A stretch of 64,000 nt of DNA from the NCBI GenBank assembly GCA_950295325.1, contig OX485805.1:43238758-43302757 (forward strand), written 5' to 3'. The position numbers and the translations under genes were made by a program. This document shows positions 9,666 to 63,531 of the stretch, one piece after another. The stretch comes from Polytrichum commune. Taxonomy: Eukaryota > Streptophyta > Polytrichopsida > Polytrichales > Polytrichaceae. Numbering within the stretch: the first letter of the stretch is position 1; the number at the start of each line of letters is the position of its first letter. The notes under the pieces were generated by a model. It made no database searches. It was not told the origin of the DNA and worked only from the letters and a program-made list of their open reading frames with translations.

Positions 9666-9668
<3 letters not shown>

Positions 9669-9697
<29 letters not shown>
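9669..9697. repeat. (AT)n microsatellite
   Basis: Uninterrupted AT dinucleotide run. Confidence 0.95.
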
Positions 9698-9700
<3 letters not shown>

Positions 9701-10059
9701 AAAAGATAAAATTCCAACAAAAAAATTTGGATGTGAAACATTCACTTCTAGATTTTCAAGTGTTTCCTAAGGTTTTTTTTTTTCTACTTATTACATATGA
9801 AAATAAAGACACATGGAAGGTGATGAAATCTATTCCCTCCAACTTTCAAACTTATTACCTCAATGATGATAATGTATTTCTATATGTGAGTAAGGGTAAA
9901 GGGAGAGGTGATTAAATCCATCCCCCTAACCTTCAACCTAATTCCTGAACTTTGAAGTTCATTACAACAACCTTGAATTTCAATACCTTAAATTTTCAAT
10001 CACATACCTACCTTGAAGTCCACATCTCATTCACCTTAATCACACATCCTCAAACAAAA

Positions 10060-10470
10060 GGTACGTCAAAAAGGCCAAATCCATCATCGGCCTCAACTTG
10101 GCGGACAACCAATTTGCACAAATCAAGAGTTGTAAAGGACCTGCAGAGGTGTAAAAGACCCTTAACAACATTCACAAGACGAAGAATTTGTCCAACATCC
10201 TCTTCATTTGCCTCAAGTTCTTCACATGCAAGATGCAAGAGGACGACAACTTGTTGGAATACGTCAACAAGGTCAAAGCGCTTGCAAATCAACTCACGTA
10301 TTTGGAGGTACCCGTGCGGGAGGAAAACATTGTTATGAATTTGCTCAAGAGTTTACCGGCCTCGTATGAGTACTTAATCACCATCTTGAAGACAATATTA
10401 ATGATGGAATTGAAAATGGAGTACATACGGCATGTTTGATGCACAAGATGTCACAATGCAAGGAGAAGGA
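10060..10470 (+). pseudogene. Ty1/copia gag fragment (UBN2-like)
   Basis: The + frame reads a copia-type gag core: a segment around SIIGLNLADNQF, then KMQEDDNLLEYVNKVKALANQL, LPASYEYL and HKMSQCKEKEPQGED. This matches the retrotransposon gag/UBN2 family in order and spacing. It is broken: an in-frame TAA at 10152-10154, a stop at 10437-10439, and a frameshift near 10432 before the KEKEPQGED segment. No protease, integrase or reverse transcriptase follows. The fragment ends at an inverted junction with another gag piece on the opposite strand. Confidence 0.75.
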
Positions 10471-14400: not shown

Positions 14401-14448
14401 TGTGATCCCAAACACAATTGTACTTCCTTCAACATAGGTCTTCTCACC

Positions 14449-14450
14449 AG
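14449..14450 (+). other. possible 5' UTR intron acceptor
   Basis: A pyrimidine-rich stretch ending TTCTCACCAG lies 12 bases before the MTP start codon and looks like a 3' splice site. A 5' UTR intron is therefore likely. The donor was not located. Confidence 0.45.
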
Positions 14451-14462
14451 GTGACTTATATC

Positions 14463-16345
14463 ATGGACGATGAGAGTTCCGTTGGGGCCTTGAAATGCAA
14501 CGACAAGTGCAACATTGATGGCGTGGAAGATACCAAACTCGCCGCGCAAGAAACACGAAGCCGTGACACCCGAAAGTTGTCAACGGCGGTGGGGTTTTGC
14601 TTGCTTTTCATGTTCATTGAAATTGCGGGAGGCATTAAAGCAAATAGCCTAGCCATTCTCACTGATGCCGCGCACCTCCTTTCTGACATTGCAGGTTTTG
14701 CCATATCCATTTTCTCCATATGGGCGTCGGGGTGGGAAGCGAACCCTCGCCAAACATTTGGGTACTACCGGGCAGAGATTCTTGGGGCTCTTTTGTCAAT
14801 TCAAATTATATGGCTGGTCACAGGCGTCTTGGTGTATGAAGCCATCGTGCGTTTTATTCACCCTGACACAAATATCAACGGGAAGATCATGTTCATAATT
14901 GCATGCGTTGGACTTGGTATGAACATTATTTTGATGATAACACTCGGCCATCATGGACACAGTCATTCACATGGAGGGCATAGTCATAGTCATGATCACG
15001 GTCACGATCATGAAGTGCATGACCATAGCAAAGTTGGTCACGCTCATAATCATGAACATGAAGACCATCACAAGCACGACAAAGCTCATGGACATCACAA
15101 AGAGAAGCCAAGCATTTGCAAGAGATTGGCAAATATGTTTCGTAAGATCTCAATCCAAATGCCTTTGCAAATGGAGGATATATACTTTGTGTGGATTTCT
15201 AGAATTTATCAAATTTGAGCATAACATCTACTACAAAATAGGTCAAGACTGAAGATTCCTTACACAAATCATGGGTTTTTTGTTTACTTATTTTTTACAA
15301 TTTATTCATGATGTATTAAGGATACTTACATGAAAATTTATATCATGCACACTATGTAGTTCACTTAGTGTGGACCTTTGATTTGGATCCACATTGGATG
15401 GACACATGATCACTTTGATATTATGCAAGGTCGAGGTTTAAACAAAGACACCATATGTGATCGTGTTGTAGTTTCATTCAACATCATGTGCATTCAAAGT
15501 CATGCAATAAATCATACATTGCTTAAGGAATACAACATATCGCTCCTAAACAATTTGCTAACTTTATAATAAACTCGTGGTATATAGGAAAACAAAAAGA
15601 TCATCACGGCGACCATCACCAAAAACCACATGAACATGAACCCCACAAAGCCGGAAACCATGACAACGAAGCTCATGAGACTGTACGCGTGCATATTGAA
15701 CATGAAGATGGGCAATTACAAGAGCCACATCATGATAACGAAGTCCATGAGATACACGTGGGTGACCACAACGTAGAGCAATGTGATGGGCCACACGATG
15801 TCGGTCACGAAGATCACAAACCCTTTTTGGTGCAAACCGACCGGAGGAGGAGTGTGAAAGTAGACGTGAACCTAGCGACGGATCATGAGGCGGAGAAGGC
15901 GGAAGGTAGCATTAATGTCCGTGGGGCGTATTTGCATGCATTAGGGGACTTGATACAAAGCCTAGGTGTGTTGATTGCGGGAGCCGTGATATGGGTTTAC
16001 CCCAACTTGTATGTAATAGATCCGATATGTACTCTTGTTTTCTCGGTAATGGTTTTGGCCACGACTTATAATATGCTTCGTGAAGTTGTGAGCGTGTTGA
16101 TGGAGAGCACTCCGCGGGAGATTGATGCGAGTGCTTTAGAAAAAGGGTTGTTGGCGTTGACGAGTGTGGTTGCCATACATGAGCTCCACATTTGGGCGAT
16201 CACGGTAGGAAGGTCGCTACTTGCTTGTCATATATTAGTTGATCCGGAGGCGGACACTCAAGATGTTCTCCACAAAGTGACTGAATATTGTGAGAAGGTG
16301 TACAAGATTAGCCATGTGACAATACAAGTTGAGCGTGATTTGTGA
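14463..16345 (+). CDS. MTP1-like: MTP1-like vacuolar zinc transporter (CDF family)
   Basis: Exons 14463-15141 and 15588-16345 join in phase (C|GTAAGA donor, TATATAG acceptor) to give 478 residues. Cation diffusion facilitators of the Zn-CDF/MTP group exchange Zn2+ for H+, usually at the vacuolar membrane. Six membrane segments are evident. The zinc-site HxxxD motifs are H71/D75 in TM2 (TDAAHLLSD) and H343/D347 in TM5 (AYLHALGD). The C-terminal cytosolic domain carries [10 protein letters not shown] and [11 protein letters not shown]. Between TM4 and TM5 (residues about 161-333) lies a loop with about 40 histidines, roughly twice the loop length of Arabidopsis MTP1, and the intron falls inside it. 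The start ATG matches the family N-terminus, with a Cys pair (CNDKC) near residue 20. The nearest host gene is the GST 2.8 kb downstream on the same strand; nothing suggests linkage. Family assignment is very secure; the exact exon junction is inferred from phase. Confidence 0.93.
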
Positions 16346-34911: not shown

Positions 34912-36105
34912 TCACAATGTGTCATTGAGATCAGGTAAAGACCTCTCACTAGAGACAAAGAAGCTTCTAATGTCACATTGTTTTAGTGATGTTAAATGTC
35001 CAACACCAATTCTAATGAGTTTGTCATGGATGTTTTCCATTCCTAACAACTCATGAGTGTTGAAAATCTGAGAACCTTGGCTAGCCATAAAATTCAAAAC
35101 ATCTTTAGCATATTTTTGTGCATCGCTTAGCTTCACTACTTTAGACTCATCATCATTGCTATTAACAATCAATGGGTCTTCTTCCATGGAATCAAGTACA
35201 TGTTCGCCATCTTGCACTAATTGCACAAGCTCCTCAGTAGAATATTCCACCTCAAAATCATCTTCACCTTCCATGTTTATGTACTCTAAAGGACTAAGCT
35301 TTTCTATAGGCTTGCCTTCAACATCCAAACCCAAATTCAATGCGGCGATGAGATTGCCCAATTCCAAAGCTGCTTCCTCCATTTTGGACTTCATACGTTC
35401 ATCAGAATTGTTGATATCTGCATTCCACGCTGCAGGCAATATGGCAGACTTTCTCCAACAATTTCTAATGGTTTGATCATCTAATTCATGCCATGCCGCC
35501 ACACACCATAGCATTGCTTGAAATAGATCAACATTCAGTTTCCCCAAATCTTCATTTGAGTTATCAATTTGTTGCAAAGTCCAGGCAACAAGCTTGCGTT
35601 TATAGCACATTTTGAATGCTGCAATCACTCCTTGATCCAAAGGCTGAACAACTGAAGTCACATTTGGTGGAAGAAACAATATAATGATATGGGAGAGTAC
35701 AAAAGCATTAAATCCATCTATAACTTTTTTGACCTCACCATGAATATCATGGCTTCCTGCATTATCCATAATAATGCAAATTTTTCTATCTTGCAATGTC
35801 ATTCTTCGGTTCTCACTCTTCACCCAATGTGTAAAAGCATCACCATTCATCCAGGCTGAATTGTTAGAATAATAGTGTACTATACTATTTGGATCAAACT
35901 TCCGAGGAAAGCATCTGGGACGTGTTGATTTGTGAATGAAAACAAGCTTCAATCGCTCCTTCCCTGAGATATTAGTGCAAAGCCCCAATGTCACACGGTC
36001 CTTCTTCTTTTTATTTCCTTTTGCCTTCCCAATATTCAAAGTCTTGCAAGGAGAGGCTTTATAATACAAACCTGTCTCATCAAAATTGAAGATGTCTTCA
36101 GGATC
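34912..36105 (-). pseudogene. Tigger/pogo-like DDE_1 transposase, N-terminus missing
   Basis: An open frame of 397 codons reads a DDE_1 (pogo/CENP-B-related) catalytic core. The three acidic positions are visible: D in FNFDETGLYY (near 36080), D in CIIMDNAGSH and D in VVQPLDQGVIAAFK. The C-terminal tail is acidic and ends LPDLNDTL. The frame has no ATG at its head; in-frame TAG and TAA stand at 36106-36111. I could not find the usual N-terminal helix-turn-helix in the 600 bases up to the right end. Either an intron hides an upstream exon or the DNA-binding part is deleted. The core itself has no stop, so decay is recent or selection persisted until recently. Confidence 0.85.
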
Positions 36106-43790: not shown

Positions 43791-44497
43791 TAACATTACA
43801 ACTAATTAAGCCTTCTTGTTGAGCCATGCTTGTAGACATGAGTGTAGGTAAGGTAGTCGGGTGTTAAAGTAATAGTAACTCATGAATGTCACCTAACCCA
43901 TATAATTTTGGACATGACAAAACCCATGGAAACAATTGGGGAAGACTTAAAAGGTGATTCATATAACATCTAGGTGCCACAAATATGTTTATTAAGAAAA
44001 TCACATTATTATTTCATGTTATTTCATAAATAAATTGATAATTGGGTAATAATTTATAAGGTAAAATCTCACAAACTCTCACAACAATACATACAATTGT
44101 GGCAGTCACTCAACTCACATTATTTACCCGGCAATAGTCTAACAGTGTCGTACACCTCTCCATGAGGAGTGCCCAAAACACCATGGGCACAAGGGGGACC
44201 CCGGAGTGACACCCGGGACTTGTGGCGCCGTTGGTGAGAGGGCCCAAGTGATTCTAGTGTGGGTGAGGGCATGGCCACCGTTGGCGCCAACGGTGGCCTC
44301 AACTGCACATTAGCGGTGACTCCGCCTGGTAACCCCCCCATTGGCCCTCTGCTACCCGAAAAGGGCGTCCCGGCCCCGGCACTTTCCTGCCCCGCCTCTA
44401 CAAGGTGCAGGGCCCATTTTCTCACTGCAAAGCTCAAGGTCTCCGCTTTACTTTGTACGTGCCTCCGCGTTTTGTCTTCTACCTAGGAGTTTCTGTC

Positions 44498-45538
44498 ATG
44501 GCGGGAGGGAGGAAGCAAACTCCCGCAAGGGTGCCGAATGAGGGAGGGCTTGCAAAGCCTAGTGTGAAGGGAAAGAATTTCAACAGGGCAGAGGAGGAAC
44601 AACTCTGCAGATCGGTATTGTACGTGTCGCAGGATCGAATCGTGGGAAACCAGCAAAAAACGGGTGTTTTTTGGGAGCGCATTTTGGAGCACTACGATGA
44701 GCACAGACCGGATGCACCGCGGCCCCAACGTAGTTTGGAAACCAAGTGGGGTCTAATCAAGCACGACGTTTCTAGCTTTTGCGGCGTGTACTCACAGGTG
44801 TTGAGGTTGAACAAATCGGGCACCTCGGTTGCAGATACACTTCGCAGGTCTCGGGAGCTGTACCAGCAGAAGTCGGCCAAAAAACAAGAGTTCGCCTTCG
44901 AGCATTGTTGGATCTTACTAAAGGACCACCTGAAGTGGGCAGATGGGTGGTCGGCACCCAAGGCCACCTCCACGAGCATGCGTCTCCCTGCACAATCTGC
45001 CAGCCCGCCTGCCAACCACGGCGATGGTACCCGGAGCTCAGGAGGATATGGGCAGTCTGAGGGGGATGGCCATGGATCGCAGCGTGCGGCGAACTCCCGT
45101 CCAGGTGGATCGAAGGCAGCCAGGGAGGAGTTGAGGAGTGCGAGTGCGAGAGAGGCTGCCATCTTCGCCCAAGCAGATGCCACAAGGACTATGGTTGCGG
45201 CACAGATGAAGAAGGCGGTGTTGTTGGAGGATCAGAACATGCTGCTACTGATGACAATGCCGGAAGACAAAATTACGACTGCCGAGGCAAGGGAGTACTT
45301 GCGCCTGTGTAGGGGGGATGAACTCAAAAAAATGCGGCGCAAGCTGGCTGCGGAAGAGGACCGCGAGCGCACCGATGCAGCCAGCGTGGACGAAGAGGGC
45401 GGCAGATCCTCGGTGACTAAACGTCGCCGGCAGAGACAGGGAGGTAGCGAGTACGAGGAGGGGAAGGGTTCGCAGCGTGGCTGCGACCGCAGCGACGAAG
45501 AGGCTGCAGCAGGGAGGGTTGCGGTGTGGCAACAGTAG
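44498..45538 (+). CDS. Harbinger accessory DNA-binding protein (Myb/NAM-associated type)
   Basis: A 346-residue frame starting MAGGRKQTPARVP. The N-terminal part (about residues 28-120) has the trihelix/Myb-like pattern NRAEEEQLCRS, VFWERILEHYDEH and SLETKWGLIKHDV. It is followed by AFEHCWILLKDHLKW, the signature preceding the NAM-associated C-terminal region in plant Harbinger accessory proteins. The C-terminal half is charged and probably helical (REELRSASAREAAIFAQ, KKMRRKLAAEEDRER). In this superfamily the accessory protein binds the element ends and helps import the transposase. The frame is open, but sequence after the stop (45540-46043) still has a coding look in other frames, so the C-terminus may be frameshifted. 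Confidence 0.75.
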   Translation: MAGGRKQTPARVPNEGGLAKPSVKGKNFNRAEEEQLCRSVLYVSQDRIVGNQQKTGVFWERILEHYDEHRPDAPRPQRSLETKWGLIKHDVSSFCGVYSQVLRLNKSGTSVADTLRRSRELYQQKSAKKQEFAFEHCWILLKDHLKWADGWSAPKATSTSMRLPAQSASPPANHGDGTRSSGGYGQSEGDGHGSQRAANSRPGGSKAAREELRSASAREAAIFAQADATRTMVAAQMKKAVLLEDQNMLLLMTMPEDKITTAEAREYLRLCRGDELKKMRRKLAAEEDRERTDAASVDEEGGRSSVTKRRRQRQGGSEYEEGKGSQRGCDRSDEEAAAGRVAVWQQ

Positions 45539-46052
45539 GGGGTGGGTCTCAGGGTGCTGAGGAAGACGATGGCGATGGCGATTGCGTCATCTCCCTCGCA
45601 CAGGGCTCCAGGGGCAATTGCACTGGAGGTACGAGTCTGGGTGCGAAGGCAATGCGAGTCTGGGTGCAGCAAACACTGGGAGGCAGTGGGCGGATTTCGA
45701 CGCCACTACCGGGAATGCTAACTAGGCTATGGATGTACTGGACACCGAGCACCGTTTAGGGATGTGGGCACAGACACGGTCTGTGACCCAATCAAATGCT
45801 GGGGTGAATGCAGAATATGGTGGGGGATTCAATCGTAGCTGGTTGGACATGGATCGTGTGGATCCATGCCAGCCCACACAAGCCTCCAATATGGGATCAG
45901 CAATGATGCAGGATGGCAATGTCAATTGGATAGGAACACATAATGGTAGAATGCAAGGCAATCGCGCAGATGTAGACCAGTATGTTGAACCAGGACAAGA
46001 CAATGTGGATGTAGAATTGAGCCTACATGGGCAATTTTATTGACAATACAAA

Positions 46053-47248
46053 TCAGTCATGCATGTTGGCACCTTTCAAAGCCCACAAGTGTTCAATAAG
46101 ATCACCTCTCAAAGCATAATGTGTGTCTGCATTCTCTATCTCCTCTGTATGTGCTGTGAATTTGTCTAATGTCATACCTCTACGCAATGCCACATTGTCC
46201 ACTACTGCGCTACCAAGGACATTCTCCAGTCCAGGCACATCACGCTCATCCTTTAGAATCATGTTGTGAAGTATACAACAAGCAAACATAATGTCAGCTA
46301 TTATATCCAAACTCCATTGCCGGCACGGATTACGGATGATAGAAAACCGGGCTTGCAAGACTCCAAAACACCGCTCGACATCTTTGCGGCATGCCTCCTG
46401 TCTAGAAGCAAAGTGTTTTCTTTTCTCATCGTCGGGTTAGTGAATGCTTTGCACAAAGCAACTCCAAGGTGGATAGATACCATCTGCCAGCAAGTAGTAT
46501 CGGTTGTACTTTTGGCCATTAATCTTAAATGTCATGTCACTTGCCTTCCCCATGAGCATATCATGCACGAGTGGAGATCGATCCAAGACATTCAAGTCAT
46601 TGTTCGAACCCAGGAGACCAAAAAAAATGTGCCATATGTGGAGACTTTGATCTGCCACCGCTTCAAGTATGATGGACCATTTGCCTTCTCTGTCTCCATA
46701 ATCGCCTTGCCAGGCAACCGGACAATTCTTCCAATCGTAATGCATGCAATCCAAGGAGGCAAACATACCGGGAAATCCACGTGCCTTGTTTATTCCCAAC
46801 TGCTGAACGAAATCTGCCCGGGTGGGTTGCCTCAAGTGGTAATCCCCTAACTCTGCACGCACTGCAACACAAAACCGCTTCATGCACTCCATGGCCATGG
46901 ACTCATTGGTCCTACAATAATCATCCATGGCATCTGCGCACACACCCAGTGCAAGCATCCGCAAGGCGGCAATGATTTTTTGTCGTGAAGATAACCCAAT
47001 CAAACCACAAGCATCCCTTTTTGCATAAAATAGCTATTGCGTGTGCACACCCTATCCAAGATTGTCAAAAACAATGACCTCCTCATGCGATAACGACGAC
47101 GGAAAAAAGAGGGACCCCAAACCGGAGCACCAACAAAATAATCCAAGTACATGCGCTCGTCCATGAGCACCCTAGCTCTCTCGATGTTTGCTCTCTTCCC
47201 TTGACCCGAACCACCGGCAACAGCCCGTCGGATCGGAGCCGCATCCAT
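46053..47248 (-). pseudogene. Harbinger transposase (Plant_tran type), frameshifted and with a stop
   Basis: The minus strand encodes a PIF/Harbinger DDE transposase beginning MDAAPIRRAVAGG. Catalytic motifs are visible in order: D in MFASLDCMHYDWKNCP, D in YYLLADGIYP and E in KDVERCFGVLQARF. Two lesions break it: a one-base deletion in the A-run near 47020, where the frame must shift within the FMQK region, and a TAA in the CAC TAA CCC context near 46436. The C-terminal part ends near LWALKGANMHD. The protein cannot be made whole from this copy. An intact relative elsewhere would be needed to mobilise the element. Confidence 0.9.
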
Positions 47249-48447
47249 GATGTCCTACAATTGATCGAGCGCCATCCCCATGTTTGCCTCATCGTCTTCG
47301 TCGTCATCCAGAAAAGCCTGACAGGCCTCCTCCAATCTAGCCATCCAAGCATCCATCTCAACAAGTTCCACAACAACAAGGCTGAAAACATGAAGCTTCA
47401 CCAAAAAAAAAAAAAACCTTGCAGCATGTTGTCAAGGCTGTTGGTCTCTGCAGTCCAGCCAGCAAAGGGACACAGTGAGGTGGAGGGTAATATCCTCGAG
47501 CTACGTGGCGGGCTGGAGCGTGGACACGTGTCCCGTTTGGCGAAGGTGCAGGGCCTCGCACACTTGTGGGTGGGACGACTGCCGGGGCAGTCCCGTTAGC
47601 GCTCACCTGCGGACATTGTAAACACCCCCTTGCCGGCCACGTTGGCGCCGAGGGGTGGGGATGCTCTGAGGGCCCCGGGCGTTGGGAACACCTCCCACCC
47701 ACGGAGACTAGGAGGCACGAGGGTTAGGCCATTAGCTATGTGTAGCTCATGGCGTGGTGATTCCATGATGCTCAAGGACACCTCAATCGGAGGTGTGAGC
47801 TAGGAGTTATGGCCATTTGAGTGGGGCGCTGTCCCAGGACAGCGCCCTGGTACAGCAGTGCCTGGGTGTGATTCCCAGGATTGCCAAGGTTCAGATAGGC
47901 ATAACTTCCTCAATACTTGCCTGAATGGGGAAAGTGAGGAGTCCATCAGCATCTACGTGAAGCGTAGATGAAGATGGAGTGGCCGCTTGTTAGAATCAGA
48001 CATCATACAAGGAAGTTATGATGGTCTGAAGCTGCTGGGGGCTTCTAGGCCCAACAGCTAAGGGAAAATGTCTACTTGGCCCCAACTCTTGGTAGAGAGA
48101 CAAGAGGTCTCTTGACGGTGGGGTAGGGGCCCCGCGTAGAGTCCTAGAGGCTTATATGGGTGAGGTGGTGTGGCCTCGCCCACCCGAGGCGGAACGGCAC
48201 GGCCTCCATGGGCTTTGGCCCATTGTGAGGCCATAGTTGCCTAGTATGGTTCGGGTTGTTGTAGTGTTGCTCCGGCAACCTGATGATCAACATAGTAGGA
48301 GGGTTGGTTCCCTCCTTTGAACTATAAGGTCCGGGGTAGGAAGAGCTAACCATTAGCATGGCGGAATGCGAAGAGTTAGCGCTCGTAACCTTTGCTAGGA
48401 ATGAAAATTGACAAGATGGTCAAGGGGGGCTAGCAAGGGTTGCGACA

Positions 48448-50628: not shown

Positions 50629-51605
50629 TGTCGCAACCCTTGCTAGGTCCCTTAACAATCTTGCCAATTTTCGTTTCTAGCAAAGGTTACGAGCGCTAAC
50701 CCTTCGCATTCCGCCATGCTAATGGATAGCTCCTCTTACCCCGGACCAATAGTTCATAGGAGGGAACCAACCCTCCTACTTTGCTTTCGGGACTCACCCC
50801 TTAATCGGTAACCCATTTCCCCAATGTGGACTTCCATCCATAGAAGTCCAATCCTAAGTTGATCACCGCGTTGCCGGAGCAACACTACAACAACCCGAAG
50901 CATACTAGGCAACTATGGCCTCACAATAGGCCAAAGCCCATGGAGGCCTTGCCGTTCGGCCTCGGGTGGGTGAGGCCACACCACCTCACCCATATAAGCC
51001 TCTAGGACTTCACGCGGGGCCCCTACCCCACCGTCAACCAACCTCTTGTCTCTCTACCAAGAGTTGGGGCCAAGTGGACATTTTCCCTTAGCCGCTGGGC
51101 CTAGAACCCCCCCAGCAGCTTCAGACCATCATAACTTCCTTGTATGATGTCTGATTCCAGCAACCAACCACTCCATCTTCATCTACGCTTCACGTAGATG
51201 CGGATGGACTCCTCACTTGCCCCATTCGGGCAAGTGGTGAGGAAGTTATGCCTGTTTGAACCTTGGCAGTCCCGGGAATCACTCCCAGGCACTGCTGTAG
51301 CAGGGCGCTGTCCCGGGACAGCGCCCCACTCAAATGGCCATAACTCCTAGCTCACACCTCGGATTGAGGTGTTCTTGAGCATTCTAGAATCACCACGCCA
51401 TGAACTACGCATAGCTCATGGCCTCACCCTCATGCCTCCTAGTCTTTGTGGGTGGGAGGCGTTCCCAACGCCCGGGGCCCTCACCCACACTAGGATCACT
51501 TGGGCCCTCTCACCAACGGCGCCACAAGTCCCGGGTGTCACTCCGGGGTCCCCCTTGTGCCCATGGTGTTTCGGGCACTCCTCATGGAGGGTGCGCGACA
51601 GCTTG
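50624..51605 (-). mobile_element. solo LTR, copy B, with target duplication
   Basis: A 972-bp repeat (50629-51600) in reverse orientation to copies A and C, starting TGTCGCAACCC and ending GTGCGCGACA. It is flanked by a perfect 5-bp duplication GCTTG (50624-50628 and 51601-51605). TG...CA ends with a 5-bp duplication are typical of plant LTR retrotransposons. No internal domain is attached, so this is a solo LTR left by recombination. The repeat is packed with strong hairpins. Confidence 0.9.
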
Positions 51606-53398: not shown

Positions 53399-53512
53399 AC
53401 GGTTTGGCAAGCACTGACCTCCTCTGCATCGGTTATGACACCGGAAGATGTTTACAATTTGGATGAGACTAGTTTTATTTATTATGCCCAACCAAACAAG
53501 ACACTAGTATAA
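53399..53512 (+). pseudogene. fragment of a pogo/jerky-type transposase
   Basis: The frame reads MTPEDVYNLDETSFIYYAQPNKTL, split here as MTPEDVYNLDET and FIYYAQPNKTL. This is the block around the first catalytic Asp of DDE_1 transposases, and it differs from the copy at 34912-36105, which has DPEDIFNFDETGLYY. The frame closes at 53512 and nothing follows, so this is a relic. Confidence 0.7.
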
Positions 53513-54090: not shown

Positions 54091-54387
54091 CCACTAGAAC
54101 ACTATAGAGCTCATCCCCTTTGAGTGAAACATGGAAGCCTTTTTGGATTCATGTTCATTAAATAACTCAAATACCCAAAAAAAGTACTTATTGCACATGG
54201 TAAACATGCCGATCTTAATGTAGCAAGTCACATGCATAGACAAACTCTAGACATCTAAGGGGGGGGCCGCACCCAGGGGTTCCAGCCCGGAACCGTTGCA
54301 GTAACCGGACTTTAGGCCTAACCGGAGGCCGCATCTGTTGGGTACATACTTGGCCGCTTCTAGGGGTGTCAGAGGTACGCCCATGCC

Positions 54388-56700
54388 ATGTGGCTGCCGG
54401 AAAACAGCGTGAAGCACAAAGAATGCAGGGTTTTCAACCGCTGCTCGCAAGCAACGTTAGGGGCGCCCATGGATGAGGGCGCGTTTTGTTGGACAGAATC
54501 TGTCCAACAATCCTCCGTCGCAGGTGACGGGGTCGTCGTGTTCGCGGGCACAGTGCGCAGGGTTTGCGGGTTGTCGACGAGTTTGCGATGCGCGGGAGCT
54601 TTGCCTCAGGCAACGCCAACCACTCTAGCGGCAAATTCTGTTGCGCGTAGCTTGTCTGTGTTCTGCGCGTGTGCTCAATGTATGTGGCCCAATGTGATCG
54701 TGAAGGTTGGGGATCGTATTGGAGATTGGGCGTGTAAACGGGAGATTGAGCGGGGGGGTTCGTGGGCCGCTGTGTTTAGGGATCTCCATGCCAAATGAAT
54801 CTGGTGAGTGCGCCACGACTGTTCCTGGGGGCCTCAGATGTGCACATGCCTTGCTGTCGGCGTTGAGTCGGTGTTGGTCTGTTGTGAGGGAAGCATACAG
54901 TCCTGAATCTGATGCGTTGTGTTTCGGGACATGTGGTCGTGGTGAATGTGCGCTCCAACTTGCCGTGCTGGATTTGCAGCACCGTTCTCTCCCTTTCTGG
55001 CGGGTTCATTTAGTTTCTTCTGTTGCGCTCCTTCGGCGTTGGTGTTTGGTCTCTATTTTGCGCGCGTGGACTGTTGGTTGGGGTCGCAGCTTCTCTGCCG
55101 TGCAGGGTTCACTGCACATGCATTTCGTTATTTCCGCTCCCAGGTTTGTCCATATATTCCCCTTCTTGCCGTCGTTGTCATTTACTGGGAGTCTGGCCAT
55201 TGCGCTCCCCTTTTCTTGCATGTGGCTTGTGGATATCAGAGCTTGGGGTTTCTGCCAAACTGCCCTCTTGTGCTTCCAACTCCTTCCATGTTTTCTTCTT
55301 CTTCTTGCATGCAACGACTGTGTTTTCTGGGTTTGGCTAGTTTTTCCCTTCGCGTTGCTAATGTCAACCCTTTGGCCTCCCTCTTGTCTGCAAGTTTTCT
55401 TTTGTGTCTGCTGTCAATTTGTGTATTTCTTGGCGGCAATCTCTTGCACTCTGTACGCAAATTCACAAATTCGTTGTTCTTCTTTCTCGGTCAGGTGTTT
55501 GGCTTGTCGTTTCTGTCTGGGGGTTCCGCGTCTTTGAACCTTCGTGCCATGCCTGTCATTGTTATGCAAGGCGATGGGGCATAGACTGCATTGCCATGTT
55601 GCTGGCCGTTGTGCACTGTGTGCGCAGCGCGTAGTCAGGCCCATCCCTATTCCCTTCGTGCTCTCACCGGGGCCCCAACCTCAAAATTGAATTTTCTTTT
55701 GTTTGTTTGTGGATTGCTGCTTTGGGTTCTTGCATTTCAGTGCCGCCGCATGTAACACCATCCATGTCGAGATCCATACTGTGTGCTATGTCCGGTGTTG
55801 TCGTGGATGTGCACCTTCAATGTACACCTCCTTGCGCCTGCATTGGGATGTAAATGCCTCTACTTTGCCGAATCCCTGCCCTCCCGTATGCTGTCCACAA
55901 ACAATGCCATTTCCTTTGATGCCTCCATGTGATGTGCGGTTTGTATCCGTTTTAACTGAGACTCCATGCTCCCACTTTTTATTTGATGTCGTCTGCATCT
56001 GTGTGTGGGCGGTGGTTGTTTATGTGAACCAAACCTTGCTTCTCCATTGCTGCTTCCGAGTGTGCTCTTCATCTTCAATATTGCCATTACTGCGAATTTG
56101 GGTGCAATTCCGTGCGCTAGCTGCCGTTTTCGCGCCTCAGCTGTGGCAAATTTCTTGCGGCGTTTGTGCGTCATGTCAAATCTTCATTTCCTGTGTCATT
56201 CTGGCTGCAGGAATCCATGTTGTCCCTGTCAGTTCCATTTTTTCCATGTGGAAATAAATGCTGAAACTTTGCACTCAGTCGAGTTTTCCAGACCTTCTGG
56301 GCAGGACATGTTGCTCCCTTGGCTCCTGGTTCCCTTTTCATAACTTGTCGGTGTTTTAGAATGCTCTGTGTTTGTTGTGCCATACGAACATAGCACCCCA
56401 GATTCATTTTGTGGCGTTTTTGGGGGGGGGGAAATGCAGTATGCCAGGATATAGTGCATGGGCATTGTGAATATTGTGTTGTTCGGCTGGAGTCTGTGGT
56501 CATACTTAACCCAACCTTAGGCCCACATCCGTGCAGTCCATCATCCCCCTGCCTGCAGCTGTGCATGTGTGCATCCATGCAATATGTGGGATGTGCACCG
56601 TTTGAACATGGTGGTTGTTTTGTTTCCAATCATTGCACCTCGGCTTCTGCATCAGTTCTTAATGATGGTTCTGCATGTGTGCAGAACAGGTTGCTTGAGA
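54388..56700 (+). other. left arm of Harbinger 2: T/G-rich leader or intron
   Basis: Several overlapping frames stay open, but none resembles a protein. The + strand is rich in T, G and C and poor in A, as expected for the sense strand of a long leader or U-rich intron of the Myb-like gene. A TGTGTGCAG acceptor lies just before its ATG (56705). A run of 10 G is at 56422-56431. Confidence 0.45.
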
Positions 56701-56704
56701 AGTG

Positions 56705-58830
56705 ATGGAGGACATCACTGATTTGGGGGATAGCTCACATTGTCCCTCCACCCAATTGCCTATTGGAGCGGATTGCGACTATGGGTCAGGGTTTCTAGAC
56801 AGCCAGTCCCCGATGTCCACAACAGCTGCAGTCGGAAGAGGACCTCGACGTGGAAGGGGCAGAGCATGTGACATACGGGTATCCTCGGGTCCTTCACAAT
56901 CGCAATGTGCACCTCCCCACAAATTGCGCGGGCCTAATTGGACGGAGGCAGAGATGCTTGTCCTCATAGGACAAAAACGTATTGAGTGGGATGGGAGGCA
57001 CAATTGCAGCCAGCCTTCTCTAGCGAAGTTCGTATATGGGACGACCGCTTGGAAGTTGGTGTTGGCGGGGTGCATGGCTGTGGTGGGTTTCCGGCCTAGG
57101 GATGCCGACCAGCTAACAAACAAGTGGGATGGGTTGATCAAGGACTACAAGAAGTTGAAGGATTACATAGAGGGCACGGGTTCCGCGAATTGGTGGGGGA
57201 TGAATAGAGAGGAGAAGAGAGATTTGTGTAAGACTAGAAAATTGCCTCTAGAGTTTAGTGAGTGCATGTACACCGAGATGGAAAACTTTGTTGGAAAAAG
57301 GCAAATTTTTGGCCGTGCAACAGACAGTGTCGCGCACCTCTCCATGAGGAGTGCCCGAAACACCATGGGCACAAGGGGGACCCCGGAGTGACACCCGGGA
57401 CTTGTGGCGCCATTGGTGAGAGGGCCCAAGTGATCCTAGTGTGGGTGAGGGCCCCGGGCGTTGGGAACGCCTCCCACCCACGGAGACTAGGAGGCACAAG
57501 GGTAAGGCCATGAGATATGCGTAGCTCATGGCGTGGTGATTCTAGAATGCTCAAGAACACCTCAATCGGAGGTGTGAGCTAGGAGTTATGGCCATTTGAG
57601 TGGGGCGCTGTCCCGGGACAGCGCCCTGGTACAGCAGTGCCTGGGAGTGATTCCCGGGACTGCCAAGGTTCAAACAGGCATAACTTCCTCACCACTTGCC
57701 CGAATGGGGCAAGTGAGGAGTCCATCCGCATCTACGTGAAGCGTAGATGAGGATGGAGTGGTTGGTTGTTATGATCAGACATCATACAAGGAAGTTATGA
57801 TGGTCTGAAGCTGTGGGGGCTTCTAGGCCCAGCGGCTAAGGGAAAATGTCCACTTGGCCCCAACTCTTGGTAGGGAGACAAGAGGTTGGTTGACGGTGGG
57901 GTAGGGGCCCCGCATAGAGTCCTAGAGGCTTATATGGGTGAGGTGGTGTGGCCTCACCCACCCGAGGCCGAACGGCACGGCCTCCATGGGCATTGGCCCA
58001 TTGTGAGGCCATAGTTGCCTAGTATGGTTCGGGTTGTTGTAGTGTTGCTCCGGCAACACGATGATCAACATAGGATTGGACTTCCATGGATGGAAGTCCA
58101 CATCAAAGAAATGGGTTACCGATTAAGGGGTGAGTCCCGAAAGCAAAGTAGGAGGGTTGGTTCCCCTTCTATGAACTATGTGGTCCGGGGTAAGAGGAGC
58201 TAACCATTAGCATGGCGGTATGCGAAGGGTTAGCGCTCGTAACCTTTGCTAGAAAGGAAAATTGGCAAGATTATTAAGGGACCTAGCAAGGGTTGCGACA
58301 CGTGGTGGACTCCGACCGACTTGCTTCACCGCCAAGACAACATTTTGGTCGTTCTCCCCCATCTCCACGTGCACCTGTTTTGTTGGAGCAGGCAGCCCTG
58401 CCACGAGTGCCACTACCGCACCCGGCTCTCCCATGGTTGGAACACCCGGGGACGACACTCCCGGTTCTACTGGTCGCAAGCGGAAATCAATGGGCACTGA
58501 GAACCTAGTGGACTTTATGAAAGACTTTAATTGCGAGTACCTTGCACGAGCGGAGGCACAAGACAAAGACAAACGGTCATGGAGGACTGAAATGATGGCA
58601 CTCGACACGGCGCGGGAGGCGAGAATTGCACACAAGGACGCCGAGGCTTTCAACATGGACAAAAAACTTTATGAATTGGAGGTGGAGAGGACGAGGAATT
58701 TGGGGAACATGACTAGCGCTTTGCTTATGTTGGCATCCTCAATGGACACTCTTACCAGGTTTTGTGTGCAACCTTCAACTCTTTGTGTTTTGGTTGTCCT
58801 CTATGTCATCCTCTTCGCGGATGTTTACCT
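56705..58830 (+). pseudogene. Harbinger 2 Myb/trihelix accessory gene, split by LTR copy C
   Basis: The 5' part (56705-57327) starts MEDITDLGDSS. Its Myb/trihelix domain (about residues 78-200) shows the three spaced aromatics: NWTEAEMLVLIGQKR, TAWKLVLAGCM and LTNKWDGLIKDYKKL. The coding sequence is cut after IFGRAT by a 973-bp LTR and resumes at 58301. The 3' part contains GTENLVDFMKDFNCEYL, DKDKRSWRTEM and LYELEVERTRNLGNM, the charged helical tail typical of these accessory proteins. The reading frame just after the LTR is uncertain; another frame looks better up to about 58400, so a small indel may be present. The 3' end overlaps the end of the convergent transposase gene. The protein is not functional unless the LTR is spliced out. 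Confidence 0.8.
57328..58300 (+). mobile_element. LTR copy C, inside Harbinger 2
   Basis: A 973-bp copy starting TGTCGCGCACC and ending GGGTTGCGACA, nearly identical to copy B in reverse. Strong hairpins include the perfect 24-bp palindrome at 57603-57626, a stem on CATCTACG/CGTAGATG (57721-57757), CACTTGCCC/GGGCAAGTG, and the perfect TGGACTTCCAT hairpin at 58077-58100. The bases on either side (GACAG and CGTGG) do not match, so no target duplication is seen. It may be a recombinant LTR or have lost a few flanking bases. Confidence 0.88.
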
Positions 58831-60401
58831 ATGTACTCGGAGTTCTGAATACGAACTAGATAGTCCAAAAGATCCTCCCTTGCCATCTTTCCTTCCAATA
58901 GTGCTCTATCTTCGCTCACAAAGCTCATTGGCCTTGGGGGCTGGAAGATATCATCGTCATTCCTGCGAGGCATGTCGTCCACATCCATTGGTGGCAAGTG
59001 GCAATCTTGAAGTATTTGGTCCAATGTGCGGTCTTTGCTTGCAAGCAATATGTTGTGCAACACACAACAAGTGTGCACAAATGTGGGCATGAACTCGAGT
59101 TTCAAAGAGGATTTTCCTCCAATTTCTTTGAACCTCGCTTTTAGTATACCAAAACCTCGTTCCACGCTCATACGGGTTGATGAGTGCTTGCGGTTGAACC
59201 AAACCTCCTCGTTTGTAAGAGGCATCCCCATGGGTCCCATCTTGTATGGTGTTATGCACCAACTCAAGAGAGGGTACCCACGGTCTGCCACTATGTAGGG
59301 CGGAAATGGTAGTGCCGCCGGCCAGGTCATGGGATCGTCATTAAAGCCTCCCATAACTCCTTCCTCCACCTTCCGGTACAGCTCTGTGGACTTGAAGTGC
59401 GCGCTGTCATGTAAGGACCCCGGGGGCCCGGCGTTCACGGATGTGAAATAGCACTTGCTATCCACAACACCTTGGAGCAAGATTGAGAACGATTTGTAGC
59501 GGTTGCGGTGGTCGGCCGCCACTATGCTATTGGGCGGTGCCGCAATATAAATGTGGGTGCCATCGATTGCACCAATACAGTTGGGCATGCATTGTTTAGA
59601 CTGGAAGGCGGTTGTGACCCTTGCCAACCTTCGCCCAACCGGCCAAGCAATGAGGTGGCCGAAATTTTTGCTTATGGCCGAGCACACTTGGCGCAAGATT
59701 CCATGCACGGTAGATTTTCCGAGGGCGGCTTTGTCGGCAACTAGAGGTATTGACACACCATGCATAAGTTTGAACAATGTGACAACCACCTTTTTTTCCA
59801 CACCAATAGGTTGTCTCCAGTGGGTGTCTTGTCCTTGTATGAATGGACGAAGGTCGTGCACAAGCCTGTCAAACGTCACCCTTCGCATTCGCAATATGTC
59901 GTAAAACATGTCCGGAGTGTAGATGTTGAACAAGTACTCCTCGAACCAGCATGTGGAACGTGGCTTTACGTACCACTTTGCATTCAAAACTTGAATGTGC
60001 CAAGCAAGAAGGTCATGTATTTGTTTTTCGTGTGGGTGCTCCATCGCGGACTCGTCGAGTCCAAGCCTTTCAAGTGCATTGTTTGTTGAACCAATGTCAG
60101 TGCCCTCAACCCCTCGTCTTGATTTTTTCCTCTTTGTGAATCGGGCTTTGGTTGCCTCCATTGATGCATTGTACATGTGCACCATAACCACCGCCATGTC
60201 AATGCATGCCATAATAATGGGAACCATGGCGGCAACACTTGTTGCGGTGATTGACCTTTGCCGCGGTGGAAGATGTAGGGGTATGTTGGTTGGTGCACCG
60301 CAAGGAGGCGCGGGGGGATTGCATGGACTCGGAACCGGTGCGGGTGGCGGAGACCACTCACCAGCAATGGCCGCGGCGATAGGAGGGGAAATGCTGCACA
60401 T
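58806..60401 (-). CDS. Harbinger 2 DDE transposase, intact (531 aa)
   Basis: An uninterrupted 531-residue frame. After a proline-rich N-terminus (residues 1-60) comes a helical region with a helix-turn-helix-like segment (TLFKLMHGVSIPLVADKAAL, then GKSTVHGILRQV). The DDE_Tnp_4 nuclease core shows all three catalytic positions: D in CIGAIDGTHIYI, D in PYIVADRGYPLLSW and E in MSVERGFGILKARF, with the HNILL block after it. The length is slightly above the 400-450 usual for the family because of the N-terminal extension. The ATG at 60401 is the first in frame. It converges on the accessory gene, as in element 1. No inactivating lesion was found, so this copy could be a source of transposase if expressed. 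Confidence 0.92.
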   Translation of the reverse strand: MCSISPPIAAAIAGEWSPPPAPVPSPCNPPAPPCGAPTNIPLHLPPRQRSITATSVAAMVPIIMACIDMAVVMVHMYNASMEATKARFTKRKKSRRGVEGTDIGSTNNALERLGLDESAMEHPHEKQIHDLLAWHIQVLNAKWYVKPRSTCWFEEYLFNIYTPDMFYDILRMRRVTFDRLVHDLRPFIQGQDTHWRQPIGVEKKVVVTLFKLMHGVSIPLVADKAALGKSTVHGILRQVCSAISKNFGHLIAWPVGRRLARVTTAFQSKQCMPNCIGAIDGTHIYIAAPPNSIVAADHRNRYKSFSILLQGVVDSKCYFTSVNAGPPGSLHDSAHFKSTELYRKVEEGVMGGFNDDPMTWPAALPFPPYIVADRGYPLLSWCITPYKMGPMGMPLTNEEVWFNRKHSSTRMSVERGFGILKARFKEIGGKSSLKLEFMPTFVHTCCVLHNILLASKDRTLDQILQDCHLPPMDVDDMPRRNDDDIFQPPRPMSFVSEDRALLEGKMAREDLLDYLVRIQNSEYIGKHPRRG

Positions 60402-61728
60402 GGATGTGGAACCAGTTCACCTCGGACAGACGGAGGCGGATCGAGGGTCGGGGAGCACCAAGAAGGACGTTCGGGAGCGGAGCCGAATTGAGTGGCCTCT
60501 CCAACCCTTGGTTGTGCAACCTTCATGCACAAAAAACGGGGTGAAGAGTATCCATTAATGTGTAATGTGGCAATGTGCTTGGCATCGTGCACACAGTAGG
60601 AGTGGTGCCCATGACGATGCATTTTTGTTTGCATTTAGGATTCTAGAAGAAAAGAGGACCAGCAGTGCTTGTGTAGGTATATGTGACTCCCGCACAGAGG
60701 ACACGCTGACTGCCTTTCAGACTGGACACAGAATGCAATTTTCATTTTAAGCAACAATGCGAATTCCTTTTTGAACCTGCATGCATGTGCAAGCGTTTGT
60801 TGTGAGGTTGTTTTAAGTCCAAAAGATATGGCCCTCGACAACGAAGAGCGTTTTGCAGGCAAGGTTAAATGACCTCCACAGTGACTGTAAAGTCCGTTTA
60901 TTCTGTTTTTGTGCAAAATGGACAATGTTGTTGACGATTTTCCCACAAACGTGAAAGCAAAACAAGCCTATATCTGGACCCTGAAGCATTTGAAAGACTG
61001 GCAGCACATGCCGAGGCAGTGCCACAATGATGACCGGAATTAAAATGTTGCGAAACTGCTGAAATTATGGTGCAGACACAAAACCAGATAACACTGATTG
61101 TACATGCAAACAACATAGGAAGCAGCCACCGCAGAAAACAACCATCCCAAAACCAAAGACCACAGATACTGCAAATGGCATTCCAACATCCAATTTCAAG
61201 GCACATGCTCCCCAAATGGTAGCCCCACCATGGATGTCGTCAAGGAACCCATGTGTATGATAGGCATGGTCAATGCAGCTCCAAATGCCAGCAAGAAAAC
61301 CTAACGACAGATGCAACATGGAAGTGGGGAAGCATGCAACAAAAATTGTTGCGAGGCAGCACATGGGAAGGGCGTAGTCCGGGATGTGCACACATGCCGA
61401 TAACAACGGTAAACAAAGGTTCCGAGCAACCTGGATGTGGGAAGCATCCTCACAAGGAAAATGGAATGGAAGCTGCCAATGAAGACTTGCAGAAGGACGA
61501 CTGGAAGGCAGACAAAGGACTGAAAACAATCTGAATGCAAGAGCCCAGAGGGTGATGGCGCAGAAATGCCAATGAAAGAAACGCTGCAGAAAATATTGGC
61601 GAACAATATTTGACATTAATGCAGGTATGCATCTGTGAGTGTGATAACAAGCAGAATGCGGTGTCCCAAGGCATCAAGAACATCCTTGGGATTGAACATG
61701 AAGAAGGAAAATCTGCAACTACATGCAC

Positions 61729-62282
61729 CTGTGGCTGCAGTGCCTCAAATGCGACGTCAAATGCAGCAATCCTGCTCCTAATGGCGTCAAAGGGGTTCTC
61801 TGCTGTAGACAAATGCACTCGGGGGGGCAATACTTGGAGACCAATGTCTTCGTCGCGAAGCATGAGAAGCAAAGAGCGGCCCAACTCGTGGGACTCCAAG
61901 TCGGCCTCGTCGTCGAATCGAAGCATAAGTGCTCGGAGATTGTTGCAGTCCTCTTGCAACTCCCACTTGCAATACATTTCCACAAGGGGCAGAAGTTGCA
62001 TGCAAGTGGCGCGGAGCGCATGATGAGACGGATTGCATGACCACACGTGGCGGCGCCACACAAGCTGCCCTGCATGAACATAAACATTGGGGACACCTCA
62101 GCCACCAACCCAGTACATCCAAGCACAGAAACCAACAACGGAAGGAAAAAAAACAAAGCAAAATAAAACCGGCAGGTGGAGGAAAGCAACTCACCCAATT
62201 TGGAATCCCGAAATTTTGCCTCATGTGGCACTGAATGTGAATAGTACGCGTAGCAGAACAATTTGTACCCTTCCCAGTAATC
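61729..62282 (-). CDS. unidentified exon pair inside Harbinger 2
   Basis: Two exons on the minus strand: 62282-62195 (after GCGTGCAG, before GTGAGT) and 62069-61729 (after TTCATGCAG, before GTGCATG). They join in phase to read DYWEGYKLFCYAYYSHS, HEAKFRDSKLGQLVWRRHVW, then LLPLVEMYCKWELQEDC, ADLESHELGRSLLLMLRDED and FDAIRSRIAAFDVAFEA. The composition is that of a folded helical protein and the splice sites are strong, unlike the open but featureless frames around it. I do not recognise the family. It could be 5' exons of the transposase gene, a third element gene, or a captured host gene piece. The flanking exons were not resolved. Confidence 0.55.
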
Positions 62283-62399
62283 CTGCACGCTACAAAATGG
62301 TTGGCGGAAGCCAAAAACCCAAAACCCAGCACACAACAGGGTCATCAATTTCCCCAAATGTGATCACAATAAAGTTGAACCCACGCCTGTAAACGAAGT

Positions 62400-63460
62400 G
62401 TCGGCATGTAATGGCGACTGCGCTCAACACAGAACCGCAGTGCCGAGCATATCAGAGAAAAAGTCAGCTCACAATGGTTATTGCGCATCAAATCTGTACA
62501 GAGAAACAATGCACATGAGGGGGGGGGGCAGAGAGGGAGGTTGTGCGAGTGCACAGTGCATGTGGACAGCAGCGGATGCACCCGCGACGGGACTCCAGGG
62601 ACGAGGGCAGGGCACAGCGACCACCGAACCCTAAAAACGATGCCACATTGTATGCACATGCACGGTGACGATGGATGGTGGTCCGCACGCAACAAAACAC
62701 ACATGATACCTTTACCGAACACAAAGACCAGAACATGACGCAGAGAAAACACCCTGCACAACGGGAGACAAGGAATTTTGCGGTCCACCACCACGCATGC
62801 AAGCAGTCGTCAAAGAAACGACAACACCTCACCGAAGCATAAATGACAAGCAAGGACCAGGAAAAGAACAACAAACTGGAGAGGGAGGAAGCATAAAATC
62901 CCAAATCCAACTGGTGACGCTCCCAAACCTCCAGGACCGAAGAAGTCCAATGACGATATTTTAAAACCAAGGTGTGCAAGGGCGCGCACAACAACCGCGA
63001 CTTCGAAAGTAGCAACCCACACGCCGCATACAGGTGCATGCTGGCACCCCGCGCCATCGAACGACCGAGTTTGGGAGTGCAAATTCACGATCAGATGTCC
63101 ACATGCTCGCCGCAGTTCCAACACAGAATGGAAACCAAAAACCCACCGAACTTTGTTGCCGCACTTCAACAACCACGAAGGGGGGGGGGGAAATCACCCG
63201 AAATGCAGCCCACGTAGTTCGGTGTCGATTGATGTCTCTTCCTCCATCTGCAGCACCTGTTGTTGCGATGTCGTGCGAGCGTGGGTGGAGAGTCTCAAAC
63301 CTGACAACCGTCGAAGTGTGCAAGGCCGCACCACCCTGGACACATGGGGATGAACAGAACAAAATTTGGATGAGGTGCGTTTGTCTCCGGCACAGACCCG
63401 CCCTCTGTGGCCCACGGCATGGCACTGCCACGAAGGCACAGCTAGCCCCTCCTACCCGGT
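62400..63460 (-). other. right arm of Harbinger 2: leader/intron-like
   Basis: The minus strand here is T/G-rich and A-poor, mirroring the left arm on the + strand, with many open but unconvincing frames. G runs lie at 62519-62528 and 63180-63190. It is probably the promoter-proximal leader and introns of the minus-strand transcript. Confidence 0.4.
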
Positions 63461-63531
63461 TCGGAGGGTCCAGGTAGGCCTTCCACCTTGCCGGTCCCGT
63501 TTCGGCACCCCCTGGTGCGACCGGGCCCTAA

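Follow-up and report, generated by a model that had tools for sequence, protein, structure and literature searches.

A PIF-like Harbinger element with long, mirrored leaders

The window analyzed here, a 64,000-nucleotide stretch of Polytrichum commune DNA (contig OX485805.1), contains a PIF-like Harbinger element whose limits were placed by aligning its two ends and inspecting its flanks (Table 1). The inverted ends are imperfect, with mismatches across roughly the first 20 bases of the alignment, and TAA directly flanks both of them, giving the inverted repeats and the 3-bp TAA/TTA target duplication of PIF/Harbinger elements. The long minus-strand frame encodes a Harbinger-type DDE transposase, matching Pfam DDE_Tnp_4 (PF13359, E 2.2e-31) and PF04827 (E 4.7e-10), and a splice-aware gene search prefers 60227 as its start. 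On the other strand lies a Myb/SANT-like ORF1, recognized by PF13837. This combination of DDE_Tnp_4 transposase, Myb/SANT-like ORF1, inverted ends, and TAA duplication is that of plant PIF-like elements.

The ORF1 frame is interrupted by a solo-LTR-like insertion at 57328-58300 (TGTCGC...GCGACA, 973 bp), for which no matching target duplication was seen and which accounts for ~1 kb of the length of the element. Past this insertion, the likely second part of ORF1 has no convincing Pfam family of its own; positions 58490-58759 scored 24.4 in the first of the two codon scores described below, before this region entered training. Because its ORF1 is split by the LTR, this copy of the element is probably non-autonomous at present. 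The window holds further copies of the LTR, one at 50629-51600, which is 95.6% identical and has GCTTG on both sides, and another at 44146-48447 with a Pong-like Harbinger (~44268-47668, 3.4 kb) nested inside, the latter carrying an ORF1 with a NAM-associated domain and a Plant_tran transposase with stop codons, Pfam names that accord with a plant host.

ORF1 and the transposase are convergent, and a long leader lies ahead of each, the left one measuring ~2.4 kb and the right one ~3.1 kb. Read on the strand of its own gene, the left leader has a T minus A of 0.19, and the right leader shows values of 0.20 in inferred intron 1, 0.37 in inferred intron 2, and 0.20 in 61000–61728, with GC between 0.46 and 0.52 across these segments. 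Mirrored T-rich leaders of this kind have the look that would be expected of leader introns transcribed inwards. Two ORFs, a transposase and a Myb-like partner, are described as typical of Harbinger in excerpts of two papers (PMC9179366, PMC4565680), and most PIF-like elements are placed at ~4-6 kb with two ORFs in a portion of the second, which makes this a usual pattern and no strict requirement (PMC4565680); grapevine PIF families span 5-7.2 kb, as excerpted from PMC2528002. The present element departs from that pattern, as it reaches 9.3 kb and holds a candidate third coding unit in its right leader.

Table 1. Features of the PIF-like element and of its candidate third unit, by position in the window
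Feature	Position	Strand	Remarks
PIF-like Harbinger element	54259..63528	.	9,270 bp; from end alignment and flanks
Left leader	54460..56690	+	Rich in T on the strand of ORF1; mirrors the right leader
Myb/SANT-like ORF1, first part	56705..57327	+	Pfam Myb_DNA-bind_4 PF13837, E 1.4e-6
Myb/SANT-like ORF1, likely second part past LTR insertion	58412..58756	+	Frame itself open to 59089
Transposase	58809..60401	-	531-aa open frame; 60401 and 60227 are possible starts
Right leader, including inferred introns	60981..63197	-	Rich in T on the strand of the transposase
Third unit, candidate exon 1	63198..63247	-	MEEETSIDTELRGLHFG; with ATG; phase-2 donor at 63197
Third unit, candidate exon 2	62195..62289	-	VQDYWEGYKLFCYAYYSHSVPHEAKFRDSKL; first exon of the first-pass annotation; start 62289 or 62282
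Third unit, candidate exon 3	61729..62069	-	QLVWRRHVW...AFEALQPQ; second exon of the first-pass annotation; predicted four-helix bundle
Third unit, tentative last exon	60813..60980	-	GPDIGLFCFHV...EGHIFWT; picked by eye; phase 0 with stop

Candidate exons of a third coding unit

Between the transposase start and the right end, the first-pass annotation had placed two exons with strong GT/AG borders and matching phase, naming no strand for them. Both are present, on the minus strand, and correspond to exons 2 and 3 of the candidate unit. Against plant consensus tables, the acceptors are indeed strong, but the donors are only fair: the acceptor of exon 3, before 62069, scores 11.2 (rank 1/108), and that of exon 2 scores 8.8 before 62282 (rank 3/108) or 5.2 before 62289 (rank 20/108), while the donors of exons 2 and 3, at 62194 and 61728, score 5.4 (rank 9/238) and 6.1 (rank 4/238), respectively. 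We confirmed that the two exons meet phase 1 to phase 1, and the joined frame reads ...GYKLFCYAYYSHSVPHEAKFRDSKL^GQLVWRR...LPLVEMYCKWELQEDC...EALQPQ on the minus strand. When 60402–63528 was shuffled 400 times with dinucleotides preserved, 2 of the shuffles contained a linked exon pair as good, for which open stretches of at least 28 and at least 113 codons and an equal donor and acceptor at the middle junction were demanded but no outer sites; the opposite strand contained none. Open length alone would be weak proof, as a frame in the left leader stays open for 277 codons.

A splice-aware gene search to which exon 1 had not been supplied picked 63198–63247 in matching phase 2, and did so again with laxer limits; this exon had already been noticed by eye before the search. 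Its donor scores 5.7 (rank 8/238), and A exceeds T on its coding strand. Across the exons, the T-poor pattern is only a trend, with 261 of 3127 circular shifts equally strong. With start and stop, the resulting gene model scores 8.4 against a shuffle maximum of 7.1, and its internal score is 20.8 against 18.1 (0/150 shuffles in both cases). Two controls are less favorable. On the same two scores, the model found on the antisense strand of the left leader, a strand that is probably non-coding, comes to 7.5 and 16.6. Of 28 pieces of 3.1 kb drawn from other parts of the window, 22 attain 8.4 with start and stop and 21 attain an internal 20.8; this second control is weak, since it applies the base composition of the element, which is wrong for those pieces, and takes in real genes, but it lends the model no help.

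For the 3' end of the unit there are two candidate last exons. The one picked by eye, 60813–60980, would give a third-unit protein of 217 residues; it lies near the end of the T-rich stretch and its acceptor scores 7.9 (rank 7/108), but codon use gives it no support beyond chance, 46% of comparable windows doing equally well. The gene search prefers 60747–60776 under both limit settings.

Element gene or captured host gene

The first-pass annotation had left three readings of these exons standing, a captured host gene, a new element gene, or an unrecognized N-terminal extension of the transposase, and had proposed a protein profile search of the joined exons. Our profile search against Pfam assigned no family to the two-exon, three-exon, or four-exon version of the third-unit protein and recognized no known host domain in it. 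In the PDB, the best sequence match to the two-exon peptide had E 0.03; it spans 48 residues of a poxvirus capping enzyme subunit, and we took it as chance. Viral contigs, queried with both the third protein and the transposase, yielded no relative.

Capture by transduplication would have copied exons and introns of a host gene into the space between the transposase and the right end, where they would now survive as a fragment of a pseudogene or within a chimeric transcript. There is a direct precedent for this in grapevine, where PIF elements of the Pifvine-3 family very frequently have, beyond ORF1 and the transposase, a 5' stretch as long as 3.5 kb; in most cases it matches grapevine sequence, exons and introns included, and in some it is common to several copies (PMC2528002). 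Pack-type PIF elements have also been reported from maize and rice (PMC8903248), and the right leader of the present element, at ~3.1 kb, is similar in size to the extra region of Pifvine-3. Both join element genes to an additional region, one of exons and introns in Pifvine-3 and one of candidate exons and inferred introns here, but matching host sequences were identified for Pifvine-3, whereas the introns here look element-like. A captured unit would make this one more PIF element that keeps its own genes together with host exons, as already documented in grapevine (PMC2528002).

We compared the composition of the candidate introns with that of the element and of an apparent host gene, a cation efflux (zinc transporter) gene recognized by Pfam in two frames at 14406-16342. 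Intron 1 (GC 0.52, T minus A 0.20) resembles the left leader (0.51 and 0.19), in which this composition is mirrored, and differs from the stretch between the two cation-efflux frames (0.32 and 0.03), taken as a host intron with its borders unchecked, and from the element flanks (GC 0.39–0.41). Third-position GC is 0.53–0.63 in exons 1 to 3, 0.55–0.59 in the element genes, and 0.47–0.48 in the host gene; since another frame of exon 3 reaches 0.65, this measure says little on frame. Intron composition and third-position GC mildly favor long residence in the element, with a single host intron compared, and intron composition likewise mildly favors a new element gene over a captured host gene. Drift could bring an old capture to an element-like composition. 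We consider transduplication less likely than not, although it is a strong rival to the element-gene reading. Short words common to both leaders lie ~2 standard deviations above shuffles on both strands, an excess too weak to use.

The neighboring 3.4-kb Harbinger was considered as a test of conservation and set aside, being of the Plant_tran (Pong-like) kind with a transposase identity of 22.7%. It has only ~0.3 kb between its transposase and its end, leaving no room for a third unit.

Codon use and predicted fold of exon 3

The candidate unit might also be a product of chance, in which GC-rich leader DNA poor in stops happens to stay open over a long stretch and to contain fortuitous splice signals. 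Open frames of 150 to 277 codons are numerous in the element, the antisense strand of the left leader yields a gene model near that of the third unit in both scores, and a first, simpler codon score, for which the transposase and the first part of ORF1 served as training set, failed to separate exon 3 from antisense windows. It gave the exon-3 window 8.3; a window antisense to the transposase scored 15.6, and of two windows opposite the left leader one, with a single stop, scored 11.0 and the other 8.1.

Exon 3 is set apart much more clearly by a second codon score, which pairs the synonymous codon choice seen in the transposase and in the two parts of ORF1 with general amino-acid frequencies. 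After the three known-gene segments, which trained this score and are high by construction, the best segment of the element is 61741–61962 on the minus strand, at 21.5 bits; shuffles of the leader reach a maximum of 19.0 bits, and 0 of 300 equaled the exon-3 segment. The whole of exon 3, 114 codons long, scores 4.7 bits, compared with -3.7 or less in 849 overlapping open leader windows of equal length. The signal rises and falls within the proposed exon, the first ~24 codons being poor. We rejected a continuation of exon 3 past 61728 to the stop near 61450, in which a 25-codon window from 61758 scores -5.6 and 61454–61728 scores -23.0; given these poor scores, an end of exon 3 near 61729 is preferred. 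A protein-like stretch just downstream of exon 3 in another frame, 61620–61700 (...FNPKDVLDALGHRILLVITLTDAYLH), was also discarded, as its 1.2 bits lie within the range of stray frames. Outside the element, 6 of the 15 listed segments score above 21.5 bits, and 4 of these 6 overlap frames that Pfam recognizes (the cation efflux gene twice, the pogo-type transposase, and the Pong-like ORF1).

For exon 3 alone, AlphaFold2 predicts four helices, with a mean pLDDT of 68 and a pTM of 0.59, the remaining four of the five models being weaker (60.5 to 43.5). The single control frame, of similar length and antisense to the left leader, gave a mean pLDDT of 67.2 and a pTM of 0.24; as the control is equal in pLDDT and lower in pTM, only packing sets exon 3 apart. 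We describe exon 3 as a predicted four-helix bundle with modest confidence. A Foldseek search of the PDB with the exon 3 model gave no match at E 0.001 or better, and its four-helix matches (best E 0.16) were dismissed as unspecific.

Chance is countered by the second codon score, the linked exons, and the gene-search shuffles (0/300, 2/400, and 0/150, respectively), as well as by the packing of exon 3 relative to the one control frame, and we think it quite unlikely that the unit arose in this way. The initial description of the locus as a spliced coding unit of unknown family is upheld in part: codon use, splice sites, and phase support it, a predicted fold does so weakly, and neither Pfam nor the PDB sequence search supplied a family.

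Relation to the transposase gene

The exons could instead be 5' exons of the transposase gene that encode an N-terminal domain of the transposase, given that they lie directly upstream on the same strand and that the T-rich bias spans most of the right leader. Open in-phase routes to the transposase exist (61728 to 60155, 61975 to 60393, and 61453 to 60393), and fused gene models score 74.6, or 79.1 with lax limits, compared with 73.5 for the transposase alone. However, going straight from 61728 to 60393 breaks the phase, as the donor is of phase 0 and the better acceptor, 60393 (4.4), needs phase 2; the phase-0 acceptor at 60155 is weak (1.4) and sits inside the transposase frame, whose start it drops; the donor at 61975 removes most of exon 3; and the donor at 61453 (3.0) needs the stretch that scores -23.0. 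The gene search reaches the transposase only via an 11-nt exon (74.6) or, with lax limits, via a 30-nt exon and 60155 (79.1), and two separate genes sum to 81.9, or 83.9 with lax limits, above both fused models. With its in-phase routes depending on weak or misplaced sites or on tiny exons, the N-terminal extension is the least supported of the three first-pass readings; we do not favor it and regard it as improbable, keeping it as a rival.

A proposed resident third unit and its counterparts in known elements

The reading we prefer is a third coding unit resident in the long right leader of the PIF-like element, on the transposase strand. Frames, splice signals, phases, codon bias, and composition are what the sequence shows; as we propose it, transcription would begin near the right end and proceed inwards, and that splicing would join 63198-63247, 62195-62289, and 61729-62069 to a short last exon, perhaps 60813-60980, so as to encode a small, mainly helical protein of ~160 to 217 residues. 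The transposase would then come from a different splice choice or from a second start site near 60.4-61.0 kb, a T-neutral stretch, and the third protein may be an accessory factor of the element, made together with the transposase as En/Spm makes two proteins from one precursor. We put this proposal forward tentatively: taken whole, with residence, inward transcription, alternative splicing, and an accessory protein, its chance of being right is in our estimate somewhat short of even.

The proposed likeness to En/Spm (CACTA) concerns tnpA and tnpD, two products of one inward unit that arise by alternative splicing, with a frame inside the large first intron. In the En/Spm report, a single element gives rise by alternative splicing to a 2.5-kb and a 5.8-kb mRNA, and the 5.8-kb species takes in the intron-1 frame (PMC2613891). 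En/Spm belongs to another superfamily, however, and two-product splicing of the present element is a proposal. A second parallel is the ISL2EU group, Harbinger relatives described in part of PMC9179366 as having a second ORF that is not Myb-like. There, the other protein is a YqaJ exonuclease, whereas the element described here retains its Myb-like gene and adds a third unit to which Pfam assigns no family.

An extra spliced gene in a PIF/Harbinger element is plausible, although not proven, and a full-text search of the open part of PubMed Central, by exact words, found no third Harbinger ORF in print. If the proposal holds and there is a third resident protein, the list of components to be supplied for mobilization of such elements would have to be revised, and regulated splicing of the En/Spm kind would be suggested. 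A broader possibility is that a large plant PIF/Harbinger lineage has its own third gene, encoding a new family of helical proteins and alternatively spliced from the transposase unit in a three-protein system; we consider this unlikely on present evidence, though worth stating.

Other features of the window

Two segments outside the element that score above the exon-3 segment, at 9.7–9.9 and 10.2–10.4 kb (within 9667-10427), reach 26.3 and 22.7 bits and are those beyond the four that overlap Pfam-recognized frames. A pogo-type DDE_1 transposase frame occupies 34915-36105 (Pfam, E 1.4e-35), and a fragment near 53400 looks similar to it by eye.
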